From: a gamma proteobacterium HTCC5015
Lineage (GTDB): Bacteria; Pseudomonadota; Gammaproteobacteria; HTCC5015
Reading direction: 5' to 3'
Assembly: GCA_000155715.1 (NCBI GenBank)
Contig: DS990599.1
Span: 107,846-171,845 of the forward strand
Length of the DNA stretch: 64,000 bases
The position numbers and the translations under genes were made by a program. Under the pieces are notes generated by a model that searched no databases, was not told where the DNA came from, and saw only the letters and a list, made by a program, of their open reading frames with translations. Each line of letters begins with the position of its first letter. Within the stretch, counting starts at the first letter, position 1. Positions 48,123 through 61,055 of the stretch are shown here, piece after piece.

Positions 48123-49799
48123 CTAGCGCTGTTTGCTTAAGCTAAAGCAAACCATACCGGGTACATTCGTTTCCAGTTCTAAGCGGTAGCCTTGGTGTTC
48201 TGCCAGCGCCGCCGCTTGGTAGAGACCCACGCCGAGGCCAAACTCCGAAGTGACGGGTTCGCTCATCAGCGTGTCGACTTTGTTGGAGGGCACGGGCGAG
48301 CCGTTATCCGCCACACTGAAGACTACGCCATCGGCATTGGCGGCGAGCTCCACGGTAATTTCTAAACGCCGCTGCTCGATGCGTTTGTTGCGCGCATTTT
48401 CCAGGAGGTTTTCAGCCACATTGTCGAACAACTCCGTTGGCACGGGGGCGTCGAGTTCGATGGATGAGGAAAATTGAATATCTCGGCCCTTGTAGCTCTG
48501 TTGCAGCTTTTCCCACCACTCGCTCAATTTTAATTGTCGCTCGCGTTGGCCCTGCTGGGGTTCGGTGAGCTTTCTAAGCGTGGTGGTCAGGCGCTCGTTA
48601 ATATGCGGCACCTGTTTCATAAACAGAGCGTGAAAGGCGGCGGGGTCGCGGCTGTGTTCGCCGGCGGCGGCGAGGGTTTGTAGGCCCTGCAATAAGTTTT
48701 TGATGTCGTGGGTCAGGCGCGCCCCCGTCTCGTAGACCGCTTGCACATGGGCGCGGTGGGCGAGCGATCGCTCGCGTTTGATGGCGTGGTAAAAGTGGGT
48801 CATCAAGTGCACCAGCAATCGCGCGTGCATAGCGAGGTTGCCGTGCAGTTCTTGATCGGAGTACAGCGTGACACTCAGGTCGGCAATCTCGACGTCGAGG
48901 CTGTAGCCCGTCAGTTCGCCGACGTCACCGCGCCCCGATGCCGCGTGCCACGACACGCCGTTGAGCCAGTCGAGGCTAAGCATTTCATGAAAGCAGGTTT
49001 TCAGATAGTCACCGGGCGACTGGGTGGTTTTGGCCAGTGCGGAAAACTTCACCAGTACGGTCTCAAAGGGCGAGCCTAAAACGAGCAGGTAGCGCTTCCA
49101 AAAAAAGGACAGTGCCCCGGTGCCGGTGACGCGGCGCCAGCCGAGGTTGAGCAATACCGCGGCCACACAAACCGCGGCCAGTGAGGAGAGTAGCGCCTCA
49201 AAGTAGGGAATCGAGCTATACAGATCAATGATGACACTGGCCATGGCAACGGTGGACAGGACTTGGAAAAACAACAGGCTCAGAATGATGTCGCCCTGAC
49301 GCAAATTTTGATGTTTGCGCGCTTGAAGCATGGGCAGCAGGGACACGAGTAAGCCAAAGCATAAAAACTCGGCAGCGACTTCAACTGTGGGTGGGACGGA
49401 CAGCTCCAAACTGCGAGGAATTAGGGTAATAAAAAGCGTGATCGCCAACAGGCTCAGGGTGATGGTCTGGGCCGTTTTTTCGAGTAAACGCTGGAAGGGC
49501 TCGCCGACAACCATGCTGGCGACGAGGGCCAACCACACACTGGTCACAATTGGGTGTGCGATAGCAACGACGAGGGAGCAGATTGCGACCAACAGCCAAG
49601 AGGGCTGCATGCGAATTTGAAGTTCGCCCAGCCAAAAGGGCATCCAGACGATGAACAGTGCGCTGTGCACAACGAGCAAACTGCGGTTGATCCAAGCGGA
49701 ATCGCTCCAATTCCAGGCGACGACGAGCAGGGGGAATAGAGTGAGGGCCAAAAGGGCGTTGCGCCATTGAGATTGATAGACGCGGCTAAGAAAATTCAC
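48123..49799 (-). CDS. Membrane sensor histidine kinase
   Basis: 558 residues. About eight to ten membrane helices span residues 10-240, an unknown sensory region follows, then the phosphoacceptor H-box TGARLTHDIKNLLQGLQ. The GHKL ATPase has N-box NVAENLLENARNKR and G-box VADNGSPVP / GLGVGLYQAAAL. It starts at GTG. This layout is of the PrsK-like kind, with a membrane N-terminus and cytoplasmic kinase. It probably pairs with the sigma-54 regulator 985 bp away (50785). Confidence 0.88.
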   Translation of the reverse strand: MNFLSRVYQSQWRNALLALTLFPLLVVAWNWSDSAWINRSLLVVHSALFIVWMPFWLGELQIRMQPSWLLVAICSLVVAIAHPIVTSVWLALVASMVVGEPFQRLLEKTAQTITLSLLAITLFITLIPRSLELSVPPTVEVAAEFLCFGLLVSLLPMLQARKHQNLRQGDIILSLLFFQVLSTVAMASVIIDLYSSIPYFEALLSSLAAVCVAAVLLNLGWRRVTGTGALSFFWKRYLLVLGSPFETVLVKFSALAKTTQSPGDYLKTCFHEMLSLDWLNGVSWHAASGRGDVGELTGYSLDVEIADLSVTLYSDQELHGNLAMHARLLVHLMTHFYHAIKRERSLAHRAHVQAVYETGARLTHDIKNLLQGLQTLAAAGEHSRDPAAFHALFMKQVPHINERLTTTLRKLTEPQQGQRERQLKLSEWWEKLQQSYKGRDIQFSSSIELDAPVPTELFDNVAENLLENARNKRIEQRRLEITVELAANADGVVFSVADNGSPVPSNKVDTLMSEPVTSEFGLGVGLYQAAALAEHQGYRLELETNVPGMVCFSLSKQR

Positions 49800-49885
49800 T
49801 GGGCTCTTACCTTATCGCTATTGTTTGGAGCTACACGCAGACTACCACACTGTGATGGGCCGTTTAGGTGTTGAAAAGCCAACAG

Positions 49886-49924
49886 ATTGTTGATGATTCG
49901 TCGACAATTGTTGCGTTCTCAACA
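49886..49924. promoter_or_regulatory. Candidate upstream activator sites for the sigma-54 promoter
   Basis: A 23 bp imperfect palindrome (49886-49908) has ends ATTGT and ACAAT. An adjacent TGTTG-cgttct-CAACA (49909-49924) follows. They lie about 110-150 bp before the sigma-54 promoter, where NtrC-type activators usually bind. Confidence 0.5.
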
Positions 49925-50034
49925 GTTTCAGCGAGCCGCACTGATTTGAAGTAACTCGGTTTAAATCGATTCAAAAAATTAAGTCATTGTATTTAAAGGA
50001 ATTTTAAATATTTTTAAAGCCATTCTGAAAAAGT

Positions 50035-50050
50035 TGGCACGCCCTCTGCA
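50035..50050 (+). promoter_or_regulatory. Sigma-54 promoter
   Basis: TGGCACGCCCTCTGCA fits the -24/-12 pattern, with GG at 50036-50037 and GC at 50048-50049 separated by exactly 10 bp. Transcription would start near 50060. Confidence 0.8.
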
Positions 50051-50059
50051 ATATTAGTT

Positions 50060-50163
50060 ATGCAAGCCAGAACCGCATGGGGAGCTAGGCTTAAGCAACA
50101 GCCTTAACTGTGCAAAATAAATGACAATAAGAAAGATTCGGGGCCTTCGGGCCCCTTTTATTT
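50060..50163 (+). ncRNA. Candidate sigma-54-driven small RNA
   Basis: Between the sigma-54 promoter and a strong intrinsic terminator (50140-50163) is about 100 nt. The only frame is a 15-codon stretch from 50060 without a ribosome-binding site, so it is more likely a regulatory RNA than an mRNA. It lies between the histidine kinase and trmL, near the sigma-54 regulator gene. Confidence 0.55.
50140..50163 (+). terminator. Intrinsic terminator
   Basis: GGGGCC-ttcg-GGCCCC followed by TTTTATTT. A strong UUCG-type hairpin with a T-run. Confidence 0.85.
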
Positions 50164-50204
50164 GCCCGCCTACTTTATCTCAAACGAATGGATATCAGCG
50201 CCGT

Positions 50205-50684
50205 TTAATCGCCGCCGATAAAGTCCTGTTGGCGCCAGGCTTCGTAGCCTAGAACGGCCACGGTGTTGGAGAGGTTCAGGCTGCGGCCGCTGGCCCGCAT
50301 GGGTAAGCGCAGACGTTGTGCCTCGGGCAAGTCGTCGAGAATGTCTTGAGGTAGGCCGCGGGTCTCGGGGCCAAACAAAAACACATCGCCCTCACGGAAG
50401 GCGACATCGCTGTAGCGCTGTCGACCCCGCGTGCTCAAGGCAAATAAGCGATGGTTGGCATCGCCGCCTTGCACAAAATCGCGGCAAAAGGCTTCCCAGC
50501 TTTCGTGTTCGCGCACCGAGGCGAACTCGTGGTAATCCAAACCCGCGCGGCGCAGGCGCTTGTCGTCGAGTTCAAAGCCCAAGGGGTGGATTAAGTGAAG
50601 CTGAAACCCCGTATTGGCGCACAGGCGAATGATATTGCCCGTGTTGGGCGGAATTTCGGGCTGATACAGTGCAATATGAAACAT
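50205..50684 (-). CDS. trmL: tRNA (cytidine(34)-2'-O)-methyltransferase TrmL
   Basis: SPOUT-family methyltransferase for the wobble base of certain leucine tRNAs, 159 residues. It begins [20 protein letters not shown] and has the knot motifs [12 protein letters not shown] and [19 protein letters not shown]. It is convergent with the small RNA transcript and divergent from the regulator gene. Confidence 0.94.
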
Positions 50685-50784: not shown

Positions 50785-52173
50785 ATGGCAAAACCAAAAC
50801 TATTACTGGTCGATGACGACCCTCTTATTTCCGAAACACTGGGCTTCGTACTCGCCGAAGATTTTGAAGTAGCGACCGCGCAAACGCGCGACGAGGCGCG
50901 GGCGTGCGTGGCCAAAAGTGCTCGCGCTTTCGCCGTGGCGTTGATAGACCTCGGCTTGCCGCCCCAGCCCCACACGGCCGAGGAGGGCTTTGCCCTAGTG
51001 CGCGAGCTCATGGCCAACGACAGCAATCTCAAAATTTTGATTCTCTCGGGGCAGAGCGACAAGCGGAATATACAGCATGCGATGACTTTGGGCGCGGTGG
51101 ATTTTATTCCCAAGCCCTGCGACCCGGGCCTGCTAAAAACGCGCCTCGAGCACCAACTGTTACTGCGCGAGGTAGAAGAGGACCCCGTTCCGCGCGGTCA
51201 AGTCAGCGAACTCATCGGCAACTCGCAAGCGATGGCGGATTTGGCGGTACACATTCGCCAGTACGCCGACTCGCCTTTTTCCGTACTGATTGAAGGGGAG
51301 TCCGGCTGCGGCAAAGAACTGATTGCCAAGCAGTTGCACGAACAGGGCGTGCGCACGGGTGCACCCTACTATGTGATTAACTGCGCCGCATTCACCAAAG
51401 AGTTGCTCGAAGCGCAGCTCTTCGGTCACGCGAAAGGGGCATTTACCGGCGCTAACAAAGATCACTCGGGCTTTTTTGAGGCGGTGGGTGAAGGCACTTT
51501 GTTCATGGATGAAGTCGGCGAACTGCCGCTCGAACTGCAGGCGAAGTTATTGCGCGTACTCGAAAGTGGCGAATTCTATCGACTGGGCGAGACCAAACCG
51601 CGCATGTCGCAAGCGCGTATCGTCGCCGCGACCAATAAAAACATGCGCCGCGAAGTTGCCGAAAACCGCTTTCGCCAAGATCTCTACCACCGCTTGGGTA
51701 TTCTGACGTTGCGCGTGCCGCCACTGCGTGAACGCGATGATGATCGCAACCAGTTACTGGCGCACTTTCAAGATCAGCTATCGGGGACGGTGCCGTCTTT
51801 TTCACTGGGCAAAGAGGCCAAGGCTCTGTGGCAAGGCTATCGCTTTCCCGGCAATATTCGCGAGCTGCGCAACTTGGTAATTCGCCTCGGCACCAAGTAT
51901 CCCAATGCGGAAATCAGTGCCGAGCAGCTTATGGGCGAGATCGAACCCGACGACTACGGCAGCGATGAATCGCAGGGTGCGGGCTTTGATCCCAGTGCCG
52001 ATTTGCTGTCGGGCGATTTTGATCTCGATAGCCAGTTGCGCGCCTTTGAAAAACAGTACATCGAAGCGGCGATTGCGCAGTCGGGGGGCAATTTTTCTAA
52101 GGTGGCTAAATTGCTCAATATGAACCGCACCACGCTTTACAGCCGTATGGAGCGTTTGGGCTTAAAAGATTAG
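50785..52173 (+). CDS. Sigma-54-dependent response regulator (NtrC/PrsR-type)
   Basis: 462 residues. The receiver domain has VDDDP near residue 9 and the phosphoacceptor Asp55 (LIDLGLPP). The AAA+ domain has Walker A GESGCGKELIAK, the sigma-54 contact motif GAFTGA and a Walker B region (LFMDEVGELP). A C-terminal Fis-type helix-turn-helix follows (SKVAKLLNMNRTTLYSRMERL). It is a likely partner of the kinase at 48123 and a candidate activator of the sigma-54 promoter at 50035. Whether it also controls the pilus operon downstream is unknown. Confidence 0.92.
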   Translation: MAKPKLLLVDDDPLISETLGFVLAEDFEVATAQTRDEARACVAKSARAFAVALIDLGLPPQPHTAEEGFALVRELMANDSNLKILILSGQSDKRNIQHAMTLGAVDFIPKPCDPGLLKTRLEHQLLLREVEEDPVPRGQVSELIGNSQAMADLAVHIRQYADSPFSVLIEGESGCGKELIAKQLHEQGVRTGAPYYVINCAAFTKELLEAQLFGHAKGAFTGANKDHSGFFEAVGEGTLFMDEVGELPLELQAKLLRVLESGEFYRLGETKPRMSQARIVAATNKNMRREVAENRFRQDLYHRLGILTLRVPPLRERDDDRNQLLAHFQDQLSGTVPSFSLGKEAKALWQGYRFPGNIRELRNLVIRLGTKYPNAEISAEQLMGEIEPDDYGSDESQGAGFDPSADLLSGDFDLDSQLRAFEKQYIEAAIAQSGGNFSKVAKLLNMNRTTLYSRMERLGLKD

Positions 52174-52257
52174 AGTCTTGAGATTTTGAACGCATCTCTT
52201 TTATGATGCGATCTATTACCACGGACGGCTTGCCAAGGATGGGCAGGCGAGGTTGTT

Positions 52258-53778
52258 ATGAAAAAACAGGGATGGTTTCGCTGCGCACTGCTGGCGTCGG
52301 CGCTGTTTGCGTTGATGGCCTGCCAGTCTCATCAAGCGAAAAGCCACAGTCATCAAGCCTTGGATGGGGCACCGCCAATCGGCGAGGTCGCCGAGCGCCC
52401 CACGGATCGCTCATCGGAACGCCCAGCGCCACGGCAAGACGATGCTCATTCGAGCCGCGCTGTCGCGCCAGACCGCGACGCAGAACACTACTCGCTGAGT
52501 GTGCAGCAGCTGCCCACGGCAAAGGTGTTGCGCCGACTGGCGGAGTTGGCAGATTTTAATCTCGACCTGCGTGCCCCCGCCGAGGGGCGATTGACCTTAG
52601 TCGCTCGCGAGCAAACCGTGCCGCAGCTTTTAGAGCGTATCGCCACGAGTCAGGGTTTGCGCTACGAGTGGCGCGGGGACACGCTGCTCGTAGATCGCGC
52701 CGAGGCCTATTGGCGGCACTATAGCGTGCCCTATGTGAATGTGGATCGTCTGAGTGAACGCCATACACGCCTAGAGGGCGAGCAGTTTTCTCCCTCCCAA
52801 GAGCCTCAATTGGTGCAGCAAAGTGAACATCGATTTTGGCAAAATCTCGAAGCGGACCTCGCTCAGTTTGAGCATCTCAACCTGATTGTGAACCGGGATG
52901 TCGGCATGGTCAGTGTCTATGCCAAGCCCCGGCAACAGCGGGCGATTGCCGGGTTTGTCGATCGAGTGGTTGAACGCGGCCGCCGCCAAGTTTTAATCGA
53001 GGCCACGGTTGTAGAAATCGACTTAAGCCAAAGCTATCAAGCGGGCGTCGATTGGCAGCGCGTGATGAACGGCGGCGAGTGGACGCTGCAACAATCGATG
53101 ACCAAGCCGAGCTTGGCGGCCTCTCCCATGACGCTGCTCGCTCAACACGAAAAGCAAAGTCGAGACAGCGTTACGCGCGCCGCGGTTACGTTGCTAGAGC
53201 AGTTTGGTGACGTCAACGTGCACTCGCGTCCACGCATCGTGGCGTTAAACAATCAGCCGTCGCTACTCAAAGTGATAGATAAGCGCGTGTACTTTACATT
53301 GGATGTGCAAAACACCACTGCCTCAGGTGGCGCCACCACCAGCACCGTTGAAACCCACATCAACACGTTGCCCGTGGGTTTTACCATGAGTGTCACGCCC
53401 TTTGTGACTCAAAGCGATGTCACGTTGAGTGTGCGCCCCAGCTTGTCTCGCATCACTCGATTTGTCGACGACCCCAGCCCCGCGCTGGCCGCCGAGGGTA
53501 TCGTCAGTCGCGTGCCCGAAGTCGAGGTGCGCGAAATGGAAACGCTGTTGCGACTCGACGGCGAGCAAACGGCTCTGATCGGCGGTTTGATGCAGGAGCG
53601 CCGCAGCGAAGAACACTACGCGGTGCCCGTTCTGAGTCGAATTCCCTGGCTGGGGGAATTGTTTAAAGGGCGCGAGGAGCGCTGGAACAAATCGGAGTTA
53701 GTCATTTTGCTGCGCGCTCGGCGCGTTTATGAATCACAGGGTGTACGGGTTGCCAAGGAGGGCTGTTGCGGTGAGTGA
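52258..53778 (+). CDS. Secretin, MshL/PilQ-like lipoprotein
   Basis: 506 residues. The signal peptide has lipobox LMAC with Cys22. N-terminal secretin short-repeat domains (LADFNLDLRAPAEG) lead to the N-domains. The C-terminal secretin core has IEATVVEIDLSQSYQAGVDW and RQQRAIAGFVDRV. The end has DGEQTALIGGLMQERR, LSRIPWLGELFKGR. It is expected to form the outer-membrane channel for a type IV-like pilus. It is the first gene of the pseudopilus operon. Confidence 0.88.
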   Translation: MKKQGWFRCALLASALFALMACQSHQAKSHSHQALDGAPPIGEVAERPTDRSSERPAPRQDDAHSSRAVAPDRDAEHYSLSVQQLPTAKVLRRLAELADFNLDLRAPAEGRLTLVAREQTVPQLLERIATSQGLRYEWRGDTLLVDRAEAYWRHYSVPYVNVDRLSERHTRLEGEQFSPSQEPQLVQQSEHRFWQNLEADLAQFEHLNLIVNRDVGMVSVYAKPRQQRAIAGFVDRVVERGRRQVLIEATVVEIDLSQSYQAGVDWQRVMNGGEWTLQQSMTKPSLAASPMTLLAQHEKQSRDSVTRAAVTLLEQFGDVNVHSRPRIVALNNQPSLLKVIDKRVYFTLDVQNTTASGGATTSTVETHINTLPVGFTMSVTPFVTQSDVTLSVRPSLSRITRFVDDPSPALAAEGIVSRVPEVEVREMETLLRLDGEQTALIGGLMQERRSEEHYAVPVLSRIPWLGELFKGREERWNKSELVILLRARRVYESQGVRVAKEGCCGE

Positions 53779-55384
53779 GTCAGTGGAAGCGGTGTCGGTT
53801 GGCTGCGCGGCGGGTTTGTTATCCGAGGATCAAGCTCAGGTTGTCCGACAAGAAGTTGGTTTCGGTTTGGCAGATCAACTCGATGCCATAGAGTCTCTGG
53901 GCTTTGCTAATCGCGACGCGATTAAGCAGTCTGTGGCTCGAAGTCTGGCCTGCGAGTGCGCCAGCGAAGATGCCCTCAACCCCTGCGCGCGGGCCCTAGC
54001 GTGTGTACCGGCCAGCGTGGCCAATCGATATCGAGTGATGCCAATGGCGCTGCAAGACGGAGGGCTGTGGCTAGCGGTTACCGACCCACAGGATGTGTTG
54101 ATGCGCGATGCCCTACTGCAGCAACTCAGGCCGCTGCAAATTGTGCCGCGCTGGCAGTTGGCGCTGCCGTCGGAAATTGAGCAGTGGCAGCAGCGCTTCT
54201 ATGCCGATCGCAGAAAGGAGGCGGTTGTTAGCTTGCTGGCGGATCAGTATCGACAGCGAGATCGCTGGGCTCAGGAGTTGGCCGACGCCGTACTGATTGA
54301 GGCCGTGCAGGCGGGGGCCTCGGATATTCACCTAGAACCCGAGCGCGACTACGCCCGCCTGCGATTGCGCGTCGACGGTGTGATGCGTGTGCTCAGTGTA
54401 CTGCGCCGCTCGCAATGGGAGCCTTTGCTGGGCCGCTTTAAGGTGCTGTGCGATTTGGATATGGGGGAGCAGCGCGCCGCCCAAGATGGCAAATTGCAAC
54501 GCCGCATCGATGGGCGCGATATCGATGTCAGGGCTTCTGTGCTGCCGAGCCTGCACGGCGAGGTACTCGTGTTGCGATTGTTAAATCGCTCGGCGCGCTA
54601 TCTCTCCCTCAATGAGCTGGGCGTCAGTTCGCCGCAGTGCCAGCAATTGCAGGCATTGGTTCAGAAGCCACAGGGCATGACCCTTGTCTGTGGGCCGACG
54701 GGATCGGGAAAAACCACCACATTGTATGCCTTGTTGGCGCTGCTCGATCACCGCCAAAACACCATCGCGACGCTAGAAGATCCCGTTGAGTATCCCTTCG
54801 ATGGCATTCGGCAAACCGATTTAAGCCGCGGCGCCAAGCTGGGCTTTGCCGATGGTGTGCGAGCGCTGTTGCGGCAAGATCCCGATGTTTTATTGATTGG
54901 CGAAATCCGCGATACAGAAACTGCCAAAATGGCTTTTCGTGCCGCGATGACGGGTCACCGAGTGCTGACTACCGTACACGCTGCCAGCGCGCGAGGGGCG
55001 CTAAGGCGGTTGGTGGAGCTCGGCGTGGGTACGGCGGCGCTGGCGGAGCAACTCAATGGCATTATCGCCCAGCGACTGGTGCGGCGTCGCTGTGATGCCT
55101 GCGGTCATCGAGAGGATCGACAGTGCCCGAGCTGTGGCGGTCTGGGTTATCGAGGACGGCAGGCGCTGATGGATATTTTGATCCTGGACGAGCCGCTGCA
55201 AAAAGCGCTGCAAGAGGGCGGTGTACTCGATGGTTTTGCGGCAGATGGATTGCTGGAGGTGGCCCTAGAGGCACTGCGCGAGCAGCGCATCGATCGCGCT
55301 GAGTTTGAGCGCGTCTTTGGACGTTTGCCCCGCGAGTCGCTCGCTGAACGGAGCGTCGCCAACAGAGCGGGAGCCGAGGCGTGA
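53771..55384 (+). CDS. GspE/PilB-family secretion ATPase (MshE-like)
   Basis: 537 residues. Walker A is CGPTGSGKTTTLYALL. The Asp box and Walker B are LLIGEIRDTETAKMAFRA and GHRVLTTVHAASA. A zinc-binding tetracysteine is in CDACGHREDRQCPSCGG. I chose the GTG at 53771, preceded by AAGGAGG nine bases upstream, over an earlier start at 53729. It overlaps the secretin by 8 bp. It should drive pilus or pseudopilus extension. Confidence 0.9.
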   Translation: MSESVEAVSVGCAAGLLSEDQAQVVRQEVGFGLADQLDAIESLGFANRDAIKQSVARSLACECASEDALNPCARALACVPASVANRYRVMPMALQDGGLWLAVTDPQDVLMRDALLQQLRPLQIVPRWQLALPSEIEQWQQRFYADRRKEAVVSLLADQYRQRDRWAQELADAVLIEAVQAGASDIHLEPERDYARLRLRVDGVMRVLSVLRRSQWEPLLGRFKVLCDLDMGEQRAAQDGKLQRRIDGRDIDVRASVLPSLHGEVLVLRLLNRSARYLSLNELGVSSPQCQQLQALVQKPQGMTLVCGPTGSGKTTTLYALLALLDHRQNTIATLEDPVEYPFDGIRQTDLSRGAKLGFADGVRALLRQDPDVLLIGEIRDTETAKMAFRAAMTGHRVLTTVHAASARGALRRLVELGVGTAALAEQLNGIIAQRLVRRRCDACGHREDRQCPSCGGLGYRGRQALMDILILDEPLQKALQEGGVLDGFAADGLLEVALEALREQRIDRAEFERVFGRLPRESLAERSVANRAGAEA

Positions 55385-56532
55385 AGCGCTTTCACTACAC
55401 AGTGCTTCGCGCCGATGGTACACGCGATCAAGGTGAGATTTTGGCACCGTCGCGGGGGCAAGCTCGACGGCAACTCAATTGCGATGGCGCGTTTTTAATC
55501 CGCTTGAAAGCGCCGCGCAGCCACGCGGTCTCCCGACGACAGTGGCGGCAATCTTGGCCCTTGGTGGTGAGACAGTTAAGGCAGCTAAGCGCGGCGGGTG
55601 TGCCTCTGGCGGAGGCCATGGATGCCTTGTCTCAAGAGGCTGAGCCCGTGGCGTGGGCGCAGTTGTTGCAAGATTTAGCCCGCGACTTGAGCGCGGGGCA
55701 ACGGCTTTCTCAAGCGCTCGCTCGTTTCGAAGAGCATCTGCCCGAACCGTCGATGAGTTTAATTCAAGCGGGAGAGAACAGCGGCACCTTAGAGCGGCAA
55801 TTAGACACATTGGCGCAAATATTGGAGTGGCGCGAGGCGCGTCGCTCCGAGGCAATCAACGCACTGTTTTATCCCGCCGTGGCGGCGTTAGCAACGCTGG
55901 CGGCAGCGGGGTTCCTGCTGCTTTATCTCGTACCTAAGCTAGCGCCTTTTCTGCGCGAACTCGGTGTCGACCTACCGTTTTACAGCCGCTTTTTGTTTGC
56001 CTTCAGCGATTGGCTGCTGCTCTACGGCCTCTGGCTGTTGCCTCTATTGCCCCTGCTCTTTTCCGCACTGTGGATCAGCTCGGTGTGGCGTTTTTTGCCC
56101 GGGGTGGGCAAGGTGTTGCACGAGTTGTCGCTGAGTCAATTCAGCGCTCAAATGCGCGTTCTCTACGCCGCTGGCATGGCGTTGCCCCGTGCATTAGAGC
56201 GCGCTGGCGCGTTGCTGGTAGACCGCCGTGGCGCGGTAGGCGTCGCGGCTCAGGCACTAGAGAGCGGCCAATCTCTATCTCAAGCTTTGCAATCGACTCG
56301 ACAGTTTTCTCCTTTGTTTTTACGGGTGGTTCGCGTTGGCGAGCACAGCGGCGGTTTAGAGGAGAGCTTTGCGCAGCTGGAGGTCTACCACAGTGAGCGG
56401 GCGCAGCGACGCCTGCAAAAATTACAGGCGATGCTGGCGCCGAGTGTCAGCGTGATGTTGGCCTTGCTGCTTTTGTGGATTGTGGCGGCGGTCTTTCTGC
56501 CGCTCTACGATGCCATGGAGGTCATGGTGTGA
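55381..56532 (+). CDS. GspF/PilC-type inner-membrane platform protein (MshG-like)
   Basis: 383 residues. It has two T2SS-F domains, each with a helical cytoplasmic part (VRQLRQLSAAGVPLAEAMDA, ARSLQAMSIAGMALPRAL-type block ALERAGALLVD) and membrane segments (LATLAAAGFLLLYLVPKL; LYGLWLLPLLPLLF; VMLALLLLWIVAAVFLPLYD). It overlaps the ATPase by 4 bp. It is the membrane platform that couples ATPase to pilus assembly. Confidence 0.87.
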   Translation: MKRFHYTVLRADGTRDQGEILAPSRGQARRQLNCDGAFLIRLKAPRSHAVSRRQWRQSWPLVVRQLRQLSAAGVPLAEAMDALSQEAEPVAWAQLLQDLARDLSAGQRLSQALARFEEHLPEPSMSLIQAGENSGTLERQLDTLAQILEWREARRSEAINALFYPAVAALATLAAAGFLLLYLVPKLAPFLRELGVDLPFYSRFLFAFSDWLLLYGLWLLPLLPLLFSALWISSVWRFLPGVGKVLHELSLSQFSAQMRVLYAAGMALPRALERAGALLVDRRGAVGVAAQALESGQSLSQALQSTRQFSPLFLRVVRVGEHSGGLEESFAQLEVYHSERAQRRLQKLQAMLAPSVSVMLALLLLWIVAAVFLPLYDAMEVMV

Positions 56533-58198: not shown

Positions 58199-58433
58199 TG
58201 CCCCCATTGTGATCGGTTTGGCGTTGACGCTGTTCTTTAGTCCGCAAGAGCGGGCTTTGATGGATCAACCAATCAATCGTGAGAAGTCGATACAAAGTGC
58301 GCCCAGCACAGAGCCAGAGCGAGTTGTCCATCCCCCAGCAATTCAAGGCGCGGGCTATTTAAAAAAGGGCTCGAAATCGATAGAGCAATGGGGGCGCGAT
58401 CCAGCGCTGCCTATTCGGCGAGTGCAGCCATGA
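58191..58433 (+). CDS. Small unknown protein, possibly PilP/MshK-like
   Basis: 80 residues. A hydrophobic N-terminus (VIGLALTLFFS) precedes a Pro/Ser/Glu-rich tail ending PIRRVQP. It overlaps its neighbours by 8 bp and 4 bp, which supports a real gene. The family is not recognised; position suggests a pilus-assembly accessory. Confidence 0.55.
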   Translation: MNNAPIVIGLALTLFFSPQERALMDQPINREKSIQSAPSTEPERVVHPPAIQGAGYLKKGSKSIEQWGRDPALPIRRVQP

Positions 58434-59371
58434 GACGGCAATCGGGCATGGCGTTACTGGCACTCATCGTACTCATGGCCGTTGCCATACTGAGTTTGTG
58501 GCAACCCCGTGTGTCGCCAGAGGCGGAGCATCGGCGCAGCCAGCGGGTTTTGCAGGAAGCGCTACAGGCGTTAGTGGCCTACGCCAGCCAAGCTCACAGC
58601 AGTGGCGTACAGATGGAGCGTTTGCGCATGGGTGAATTGCCTTGCCCCGATGTGGATGGCGACGGCGTGATCAATCCCACGATTGATTACACGGGTAGCG
58701 ACTGCACCGCCTACGTTGGCTGGTTGCCCTGGCGCAGTTTGGGGTTGCCCGAGGGCAAAGACGGTACCGGTGCTCGGCTTTGGTATGTGCTCGCCCCCGC
58801 CTGGGCCAATCGTGCGGGCGGTGTGGAAGCGGTGCTCAACCCCGATCAGACCGATCGAGTGTGGCTGGACGGTCAGGCTGCCGTGGCTTGGTTAATATCT
58901 CCCAGCGCCCCGCTGCCTCAGCAACAGCGAGACATCGCCAGCGATGGCGCGAGCCAAATCGCGCACTACCTAGAGTGGAGCGCGCTGGGTCCTCAACAGT
59001 GGCAGCGGCAAGCCGCCAGCAATGATCGGGCACTCGCCCTCGGTGCAGATCGTTTGTTGTACAGCGCCGAGCAGGTTGCCATAAAAGCGGTGGCGGGCTG
59101 GCTCAATGGTTTTTATCGAGATCAGCATCACTACCCAAGCGCGGCGCCGCTGGCGGGCCAAGTGTGCCAAGCCGGTGTGTCGGTGGGCGAATTGCCCAGC
59201 GCATGTCCCACATCGCTCGCTCTGCCGTGGCCCGAGTCCGACGACATGGATGCGTGGCTGTTGCGCAATCAGTGGTTGGCGCACATCGAGTATCGACAGT
59301 TGTCCAGCCAGCGCGTGCAGTTAGTGGGGCCTCAGCAGCGCGTTGAAATCGCAAGTGGAGTCATACAATGA
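58430..59371 (+). CDS. Large pseudopilin-like protein
   Basis: 313 residues. The start (MRRQSGMALLALIVLMAVAI) has a short positive leader and a long hydrophobic stretch, as in minor pseudopilins. It has a Ca2+-binding-like loop PDVDGDGVINP near residue 75 and several cysteines (LPCPD, SDCTAY). It overlaps the upstream stop by 4 bp. It is probably a minor subunit capping or shaping the pseudopilus. Confidence 0.65.
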   Translation: MRRQSGMALLALIVLMAVAILSLWQPRVSPEAEHRRSQRVLQEALQALVAYASQAHSSGVQMERLRMGELPCPDVDGDGVINPTIDYTGSDCTAYVGWLPWRSLGLPEGKDGTGARLWYVLAPAWANRAGGVEAVLNPDQTDRVWLDGQAAVAWLISPSAPLPQQQRDIASDGASQIAHYLEWSALGPQQWQRQAASNDRALALGADRLLYSAEQVAIKAVAGWLNGFYRDQHHYPSAAPLAGQVCQAGVSVGELPSACPTSLALPWPESDDMDAWLLRNQWLAHIEYRQLSSQRVQLVGPQQRVEIASGVIQ

Positions 59372-60093
59372 AGCAGCGCGGTTTTAGCTTACTGGAATTG
59401 GCGTTAGTCATTGCCGTGTTGGGATTGTTGCTGGGCGCGGCGATTAACCCGATGCGCCACTTTCTCAGGCAGCAGTGGATCGAGCGCGAACAAGCTCAGC
59501 TGGCTACGGCGAGAGACCTGCTACTGGCCTACGCTGTGCGGCAGGGGCGGTTGCCCTGTCCCGACCGCGATGGCGATGGCCGAGAGGACAACGGCAACGG
59601 CAGCTGTGGCGAGACTGCTATTAACAGCTCGCCCAGTGACGCCCAGCGCCAGCGTATTGTCGCGGGCCGCCTGCCGTGGCTCGACGTCGGTGCCGCCGCT
59701 CGCAACGCCCACGGCGAGCGCTACCACTACGCCGTGACACTGCATTACGCCGACACGGCCAGCTTCGATGATCCCACCGAATTTCCCCGCAGTTCCGGTT
59801 TGGCGTGCCCCAAGGCCAGCGCCAGCTTACTGCCCCAGCCGAGCTTTACCCTGTGTAGCTTGGGCGCCATTGATATTCGTGCGGCCGAGGGTAGTTGGCG
59901 CGTGCGCGACGCGCCCTTTGTGCTTTGGAGTCGCGGGGCAGACTCGGGTGCTCGCAGCAGTGGCGAGAGCGAAAACGCCGACGGCGATCGCGTATTCGAA
60001 ACACGGCCTTGGAACACTCAGTTCGACGATCAAGTGAGTTGGCTGTCTTCAGCACAGCTGGCTTGGCAAGGTGGGCTTCGGCCCGGTTACTAA
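59368..60093 (+). CDS. Prepilin-type pseudopilin
   Basis: 241 residues. A short leader MKQRG is followed by FSLLELALVIAVLGLLLGAA, the type IV prepilin cleavage and helix motif with Gly at -1. A Ca2+-loop-like DRDGDGREDN lies near residue 68. A conserved Cys pair (NGSCGET, SGLACPK) may be disulfide-bonded. ATGA overlap with the preceding gene. Confidence 0.8.
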   Translation: MKQRGFSLLELALVIAVLGLLLGAAINPMRHFLRQQWIEREQAQLATARDLLLAYAVRQGRLPCPDRDGDGREDNGNGSCGETAINSSPSDAQRQRIVAGRLPWLDVGAAARNAHGERYHYAVTLHYADTASFDDPTEFPRSSGLACPKASASLLPQPSFTLCSLGAIDIRAAEGSWRVRDAPFVLWSRGADSGARSSGESENADGDRVFETRPWNTQFDDQVSWLSSAQLAWQGGLRPGY

Positions 60094-60123: not shown

Positions 60124-60756
60124 ATGAAAGAAATAAACGAAAGGAAATGGAATCAGCAAAGAGCATTTACCCTCGTCGAATTGGCCATAGTGCTGGTTAT
60201 TGTCGGTCTGTTACTGGGTGGCGTGCTCAAGGGGCAGGCGATGATCGACAGCGCTCGCATGAAGCGAGCCATACAAGATTATAAAAATATCAGCGCCGCC
60301 GTACTGACCTACCGAGATCAATACAAAAGCTGGCCCGGGGATGACAACCGCGCACAAACACTACTCGGCAACACCACGCTACTCAACGGCGATGGTGATG
60401 GGCGTGTCGACGGCAGCTACGCCAGCAGTGACGACACCAACGAGTCGCGGCAGTTTTGGTACCACCTGCGCGCCGCCGATATGGTGACGGGCAGCAGCGC
60501 CGACACCGCGGGCGGCACATTGCTGCCGAGTAACCCTTGGGGTGGCCAAACGGGTGTGACCTCCAGTGCCATCAGTGGTTTTGCCTTGGGCGAGGCCAAT
60601 ACGCTGTGCTACGGACTCGTGCCCGGCGATGCCAGTCGCAATATCGACACACAGCTCGACGACGGCGTGCCCACCACGGGCAAAGTGCGCGGCCACGCCA
60701 GTGACACTAGCTACGACGCCAGCTCCAACTACACGCTGTGCCTAGTGATTGGTTAG
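60124..60756 (+). CDS. Prepilin-type pseudopilin with alanine at -1
   Basis: 210 residues. A longer leader (13-14 residues) precedes A-FTLVELAIVLVIVGLLLG: Ala rather than Gly at the -1 cleavage position, with the conserved Glu5 present. A NGDGDGRVDG Ca2+-loop-like sequence occurs near residue 87. It is the last gene of the operon. It may be the major subunit, or an alternative pseudopilin. Confidence 0.8.
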   Translation: MKEINERKWNQQRAFTLVELAIVLVIVGLLLGGVLKGQAMIDSARMKRAIQDYKNISAAVLTYRDQYKSWPGDDNRAQTLLGNTTLLNGDGDGRVDGSYASSDDTNESRQFWYHLRAADMVTGSSADTAGGTLLPSNPWGGQTGVTSSAISGFALGEANTLCYGLVPGDASRNIDTQLDDGVPTTGKVRGHASDTSYDASSNYTLCLVIG

Positions 60757-60808
60757 TGGGCTAAAAGAGGGCTGCGGTCTCTCGCTATGGAGGGGTGATT
60801 GGGTCACT

Positions 60809-60943
60809 GTCGGCCTGAAGGCCGACCCACGGTCACTGGTGGGCAGAAACTTAGGATTGAAACACAGAGGCCAAAGAGCCCTCCGAGTGGACAGAGTGAT
60901 TCCCCATCACATCAAGCCGACGTGGGTCGGACTTCAGTCCGAC
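60809..60943. repeat. Inverted REP pair (REPIN-like)
   Basis: GTCGGCC-tgaa-GGCCGAC (60809-60826) and GTCGGAC-ttca-GTCCGAC (60926-60943) are the same palindrome in opposite orientation, each with a GTGGG/CCCAC flank. A related copy lies near 35334. A further imperfect hairpin, GCTTGCTTGATG / CATCAAGTAAGC, lies at about 60979-61014. The 299 bp gap 60757-61055 has no gene. Confidence 0.7.
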
Positions 60944-61055
60944 CGTAGCAGTGACCGCTGCTAGTTCAGAGCGACAGCTTGCTTGATGACGGGGCAGCCG
61001 CGACATCAAGTAAGCTTAGTGAGCCCTGTGTTTTTACTGTCCAGGCAGACGAAAG

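Follow-up and report, generated by a model that had tools for sequence, protein, structure and literature searches.

The PilS-PilR pair controls pilA together with RpoN, and the small RNAs Qrr (LuxO) and GlmY (GlrR) are enhancer-dependent products of sigma-54 promoters. In commensal Neisseria, pilE is under the control of Nps-Npa and RpoN, through a kinase, an NtrC-type regulator, an upstream activating sequence and a GG-N10-GC promoter, as described in PMC6528607. In PEP-CTERM systems, the regulator of the PrsK-PrsR pair is likewise of the NtrC type and is accompanied by a sigma-54 promoter and a DNA motif upstream (PMC1569441). In the CbrA-CbrB/CrcZ system of Pseudomonas, a two-component pair is accompanied by a nearby small RNA with a sigma-54 promoter; CrcZ has a length of 407 nt with six (ARN)n motifs of 4 or more, and the CbrB subsites are described as non-palindromic (PMC8871633 and PMC4063720). 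A search of the open-access literature found no report that a regulator of the PilR/PrsR type drives a small RNA, nor one of sigma-54 control for the MSHA-like pilus cluster described below.

The DNA analysed here, called the window, is a stretch of 64,000 nt from the gamma proteobacterium HTCC5015. It possesses a kinase, an NtrC-type regulator, upstream activating sites and a GG-N10-GC promoter, as in the Nps-Npa/pilE system, and in the relatives of the window the target of such a promoter is also a type IV pilin. In contrast to Nps-Npa/pilE, the window promoter is followed by a predicted, terminated RNA of about 100 nt instead of a pilin, and the cluster is MSHA-like. Set beside PilSR and Nps-Npa-type units, the locus has the GG-N10-GC spacing and upstream sites shared with the pilin promoters of relatives, whereas no pilin lies directly downstream: the terminator begins at 50140 and the pilin at 60124. 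Judged by these elements, the locus belongs by mechanism with Nps-Npa/RpoN-pilE and PilS-PilR.

The best NCBIfam models for both window proteins are PrsK and PrsR, with which the locus has the NtrC-type regulator, the upstream motif and the sigma-54 promoter in common. The differences relate to the scores, which are far below the curated cut-offs (58.8 bits against 300 for the kinase and PrsK, TIGR02916; 330.6 against 502.6 for the regulator and PrsR, TIGR02915), and to the cluster, which is a pilus and not an exopolysaccharide cluster. With Qrr and GlmY the window shares an enhancer-dependent small RNA gene, here a predicted one; unlike them, it has different neighbours and an RNA with no Rfam match at the gathering score.

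A first, sequence-only reading of this DNA had likened the locus to CbrB-CrcZ in its logic, with a different RNA sequence. The general likeness holds (two-component pair, sigma-54 promoter, small RNA near the pair), and the RNA does differ, but the locus is not a CrcZ-like unit. Membership was rejected on the size of the RNA (about 100 nt), its (ARN) content (at most three triplets in a run, with (ARN)n of at least 4 absent) and the Rfam search, in which no family matched at the gathering score and weaker matches were at chance level. The window sites are moreover palindromic, and the pair is that of a pilus cluster. CrcZ-type RNAs titrate Hfq/Crc; an Hfq gene is present in this genome.

Promoter, palindromes and predicted RNA

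A sigma-54 promoter of the -24/-12 type, TGGCACGCCCTCTGCA, is located at 50035..50050 on the plus strand; as claimed from the letters alone, it is near consensus, agreeing at 11 of the 12 fixed positions, with exact GG-N10-GC spacing. Three putative enhancer palindromes precede it on the same strand: a perfect TGTTGN6CAACA at 49869..49884 (TGTTGAAAAGCCAACA), a site at 49891..49906 (TGATGATTCGTCGACA) with one mismatch to TGTYGN6CRACA, and a second perfect TGTTGN6CAACA at 49909..49924 (TGTTGCGTTCTCAACA), a motif also found upstream of the pilin promoters of relatives. Enhancer-like palindromes had been placed at 49886-49924; they are present, and that span covers two of the three sites. A weak IHF-like site, with one mismatch to the IHF consensus, lies at 49969..49981 on the plus strand.

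The promoter sequence by itself is not rare. Consensus matches with up to two mismatches number 395 in the whole genome, against 340 with the reversed control, and sigma-54 consensus matches in the window number 16, against 15.4 expected. The rarity is in the combination with the palindromes. Perfect TGTTGN6CAACA occurs three times in the 2.63-Mb genome, two of them at this locus and 40 nt apart, and among the 24 best promoter matches of the genome (zero or one mismatch) the present one alone has perfect palindromes within 250 nt. The composite pattern TGTTN8AACA-N80-110-TGGN9TGC matched the genome once, at this locus; its reversed control also gave one match. Two genome scans with C/G variants of the half-sites and a spacing of 62-92 nt returned zero and two matches (reversed controls, one each), and the two were judged unconvincing, the TGTYG/CRACA half-sites being broken in each. 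No further convincing site with palindromes and promoter was found on the genome-wide scan. Other intergenic sites among the best promoter matches include those before rpoN-like and ammonium transporter-like genes, named by inspection of their proteins. A sigma-54-like promoter with one mismatch (G000:C30:243374-243389) starts 40 nt before the rpoN-like gene (L068), which suggests autoregulation of this gene by sigma-54.

The predicted RNA, of about 100 nt, extends over 50060..50160 on the plus strand, its start being taken from the promoter geometry and its end from the terminator. The latter, at 50140..50163 on the plus strand, is a strong intrinsic terminator with a UUCG loop and a U tail (GGGGCC-UUCG-GGCCCC-UUUUAUUU). 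The sequence-only reading had described about 100 nt without a coding frame, ended by a strong UUCG terminator, and both parts of this description were confirmed: no ORF of at least 20 aa lies inside the predicted RNA, and no credible gene was recognised in the roughly 80 nt ahead of the hairpin. A sigma-54 promoter, no credible gene and a terminator within a few hundred nt form the arrangement of a sigma-54-dependent small RNA. The body of the RNA folds no better than its shuffles (z -0.84). A run of three AAN triplets before the hairpin and the U tail after it may resemble the corresponding parts of many Hfq-bound RNAs; an Hfq gene and an RpoN-like gene are present in the genome.

Two short reading frames raise the question of a small peptide encoded by the RNA. 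One, of 15 codons, begins at 50060, the predicted start site itself, and would be leaderless; the other, of 43 aa (50121-50252), runs through the terminator and then antisense into trmL, is without a visible ribosome-binding site, and is probably no gene; neither frame is known to be conserved. A peptide product is thus scarcely to be expected. It may also be supposed that the sigma-54 promoter is an inactive look-alike that arose by chance, and that the terminator serves trmL or stops transcripts reading through from elsewhere. Single -24/-12 matches do occur at about chance frequency in this genome, and on the minus strand the hairpin also has the form of a terminator, though a weaker one. 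The promoter, however, stands with three palindromes beside a matching kinase, and the same combination recurs at the pilin genes of relatives; a coincidence of this kind appears highly improbable.

The two-component pair and the pilin promoters of relatives

The sensor histidine kinase of the pilus-type pair (48123..49799, minus strand) contains a HATPase_c domain, and its THDxKN box is conserved in an alignment of 20 relatives. The sigma-54 response regulator (50785..52173, plus strand) consists of a receiver, an AAA+ domain with GAFTGA and a Fis-type HTH with NRTTLYSR. These two genes had been described as flanking the RNA. They are indeed a neighbouring pair, but the description omitted trmL (50205..50684, minus strand; TIGR00185 above cut-off), which is convergent with the RNA and separates it from the regulator. 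The proposal that the neighbouring kinase and sigma-54 regulator are the controllers finds support at the level of sequence. After the regulator, the pilus operon begins with the gene for an MshL-like secretin (52258..53778; TIGR02519, 226 bits against a cut-off of 250). Further along are an MshE/GspE-like pilus ATPase (53729..55384) and an MshG/GspF-like platform protein (55381..56532), both recognised by protein model matches, the conserved pilus-cluster gene orf58388 (58388..59371), which has homologues in the clusters of relatives, the prepilin-like pilinB (59368..60093) and, 31 nt behind it at the end of the operon, the pilin gene pilinA (60124..60756), all on the plus strand. By this comparison, the kinase and the regulator are assigned to an MSHA-like type IV pilus cluster as its two-component pair.

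Near full-length relatives of the kinase occur in about 50 of the 369 genomes of the class; matches of any kind at E <= 0.001 were found in 193 of the 369, mostly to the kinase core alone. Orthologues of the kinase are found in MSHA-like pilus clusters: in the 20 loci compared, the kinase regularly adjoins pilinB and is near pilinA; locus L098 (G002) is without such a kinase. The regulator was present in all 20 genomes tested, with 50-60% identity, and its DNA-reading helix is NRTTLYS[RK] in 18 of them; the two remaining genomes have NRTHFYSR or NRTTLYGK. The NtrC-family regulators adjacent to the kinase in L082, L083 and L096 were rejected as its partner: they have 32-33% identity to the window regulator and the HTH of NtrC, and a closer orthologue of the regulator is encoded elsewhere in these genomes.

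From 100 loci around kinase relatives (20 and 80), 78 pilin genes of this type, all non-redundant, remained after the exclusion of duplicate upstream regions, genes with less than 120 nt upstream and pilins without the KGQ/KGE signature, the G001 pilin (LRGQ) being among those excluded. A sigma-54 promoter (at least 9 of 12 positions) was identified within 180 nt for 70 of the 78, a proportion conditional on loci chosen as kinase relatives, compared to 164 of 3000 random positions; these promoters start at a median of 62 nt before the pilin start codon. One relative with such a promoter before its pilin is the Dechloromonas sp. H13 isolate (L160). In the 250 nt preceding each of the 70 promoters, a perfect TGTYGN6CRACA occurs in 12 cases and one with at most one mismatch in 43, with shuffle expectations of 0.0 and 1.3, respectively. 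Many of the palindromes are about 80-110 nt upstream of the promoter, and pairs are common. Because the pilin promoters of relatives share both the promoter and the palindromes, the window promoter is very likely of the pilin, PilS/PilR-like type, and TGTYG-N6-CRACA is very likely the site of the regulator. In all 70 relatives the promoter leads to the pilin with no terminator in between; the window has one. Before pilinA itself, no sigma-54 match is listed in the window scan, and this gene, the only close pilin of the window, is located 10 kb from the promoter.

A scan that is independent of the kinase, with TGTTGN6CRACA-N62-92-TGGYAN7TGC, matched 13 of the 369 genomes of the class (reversed control, 3). 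The site is directly before this pilin in four of them (G200, G266, G362, G156) and before a nitrogenase iron-protein-like gene, as read from its protein, in one; the other eight sites have no obvious meaning. No site among the 13 resembles an orphan small RNA of the window kind. The origin of the RNA body as a remnant of a pilin leader is unsupported, the best local alignment against the 70 leaders (23.0) being equalled by 87 of 200 dinucleotide shuffles.

The palindromes precede the start of the kinase gene by 70-125 nt and overlap a weak minus-strand site of sigma-70-like sequence (49922-49893). This permits another explanation, namely that they control the divergent kinase gene only and that the sigma-54 RNA arises as a by-product. 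In most relatives, however, the palindromes are found at the pilin promoter, parted from the kinase gene by other genes, and autoregulation would not require a near-consensus -24/-12 element to be kept. Autoregulation as the sole role is accordingly considered improbable.

Gene order and the fate of the promoter

The genome (2.63 Mb, 30 contigs, 98.9% complete) was compared with three genomes of the same family, all from different genera than its own. Between gpsA and trmL, the window contains the kinase, the palindromes, the promoter, the predicted RNA and the terminator. In the sister genus G003, gpsA and trmL converge beside the regulator, their stops 2 nt apart. In the sister genus G001, pilinB and pilinA flank the kinase, which is divergent from pilinA. 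The idea that the window terminator is an old bidirectional terminator of gpsA and trmL is unsupported, as the 2 nt in G003 leave no space for one. It was also observed that trmL adjoins the regulator in a distant family (L219, L220; G139, G347); the neighbourhood of trmL and regulator would therefore predate the move of the kinase.

The simplest account of these gene orders would be that the kinase and the divergent pilin promoter moved beside the regulator and pilinA was left behind. In the ancestor, pilinB and pilinA would have flanked the kinase, and the pilin promoter would have pointed away from it; in this lineage, kinase and promoter would have come between gpsA and trmL, and pilinA would have been stranded directly behind pilinB. 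What the locus looked like immediately before this move is uncertain, because the G001 pilin lacks a canonical sigma-54 promoter. The identity of the motif, the cluster membership, the orthology of the regulator and the differing gene order come from direct comparison, and the direction of change would rest on parsimony and not on a tree. The separation of a pilin promoter from its pilin is well probable, and it is common to the two readings of the RNA considered below, as a functional molecule and as a relic. The new point, by this comparison, is a pilin promoter lacking its pilin.

The preferred reading, with a probability of roughly 45%, is a functional small RNA transcribed from the relocated pilin promoter. 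The phosphorylated regulator would bind the three palindromes and activate the sigma-54 polymerase at 50035, and an RNA of about 100 nt ending at the UUCG hairpin would be made. This RNA would be the present sigma-54 output of the pair, a small regulatory RNA that probably acts with Hfq. We infer transcription, its dependence on RpoN and the regulator, and any function of the RNA from the arrangement of the locus. In favour of function, the regulator retains its working parts (receiver, GAFTGA and HTH), and no sigma-54 target other than the RNA promoter was recognised for it in the genome; both the promoter (11 of 12 positions) and the palindromes (two of them perfect) are intact, and a strong terminator, new after the promoter, ends the unit.

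The same observations weigh against the RNA being a functionless stub behind a promoter that is real and derived as proposed. The palindromes could nevertheless have persisted since the move is recent, or since they also serve the divergent kinase promoter, and the rearrangement gives such a relic a simple origin. The absence of a homologue, a special fold or a convincing target speaks for it and against function, and the relic is a possibility to be taken seriously, if tentatively. No homologue of the RNA was found among the 36 genomes searched, the genome itself and the three of the same family included; the DNA search with promoter and RNA in these 36 returned the own site and one match of 30 nt over the terminator in G017. 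The kinase search of genome contigs yielded no congeners (none with the single protein; at most 36% identity with the alignment).

Target prediction, proposed together with the sequence-only reading, was carried out on 247 ORFs, which a simple rule called in the window plus 200 kb of the genome (2.63 Mb). By plain duplex energy, MshL ranked first of the 54 window genes, 2% of shuffled RNAs equalled the RNA against it, and a 9-bp match spans the MshL ribosome site. With accessibility added, MshL drops to rank 41 of the 247 ORFs, through another stretch, the top ranks are taken by other genes, and pilinA has zero match. Nothing convincing emerged over the 247 ORFs, and no target is claimed. A bolder reading, less likely than not, is that a small RNA born by promoter displacement has replaced pilin as the single sigma-54 output of the pair and acts in trans to tune either the pilus operon or the behaviour of the cell surface.

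If the preferred reading of a functional RNA is true, one route to a small RNA gene is a complete, strictly controlled promoter freed from its protein gene, with a terminator closing the new unit, and the output of a conserved pilus-sensing system can become an RNA where it was once a structural protein. Independently of the RNA, the comparison defines TGTYG-N6-CRACA as the likely binding site for the regulator that goes with a widespread MSHA-like pilus cluster, a prediction that is directly testable.

Further observations on the pilus cluster

An ExeA/MshM-like gene, whose product starts with MYxxxFGLxxPPFxITPDT, is located between the regulator and MshL in G001, G003, G139, G347 and G014 and is missing from the window (52174-52257). 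The pilus cluster of the window looks reduced. Loci L109, L110 and L161 carry this environmental pilus-cluster kinase; their MAG records bear the titles Bordetella parapertussis and Klebsiella pneumoniae, which are probably mislabelled. Downstream of pilinA, at 60800-60960 of the window, inverted repeats with GTCGGCCTGAAGGCCGAC and GGTCGGACTTCAGTCCGACC resemble intergenic REP-like elements.
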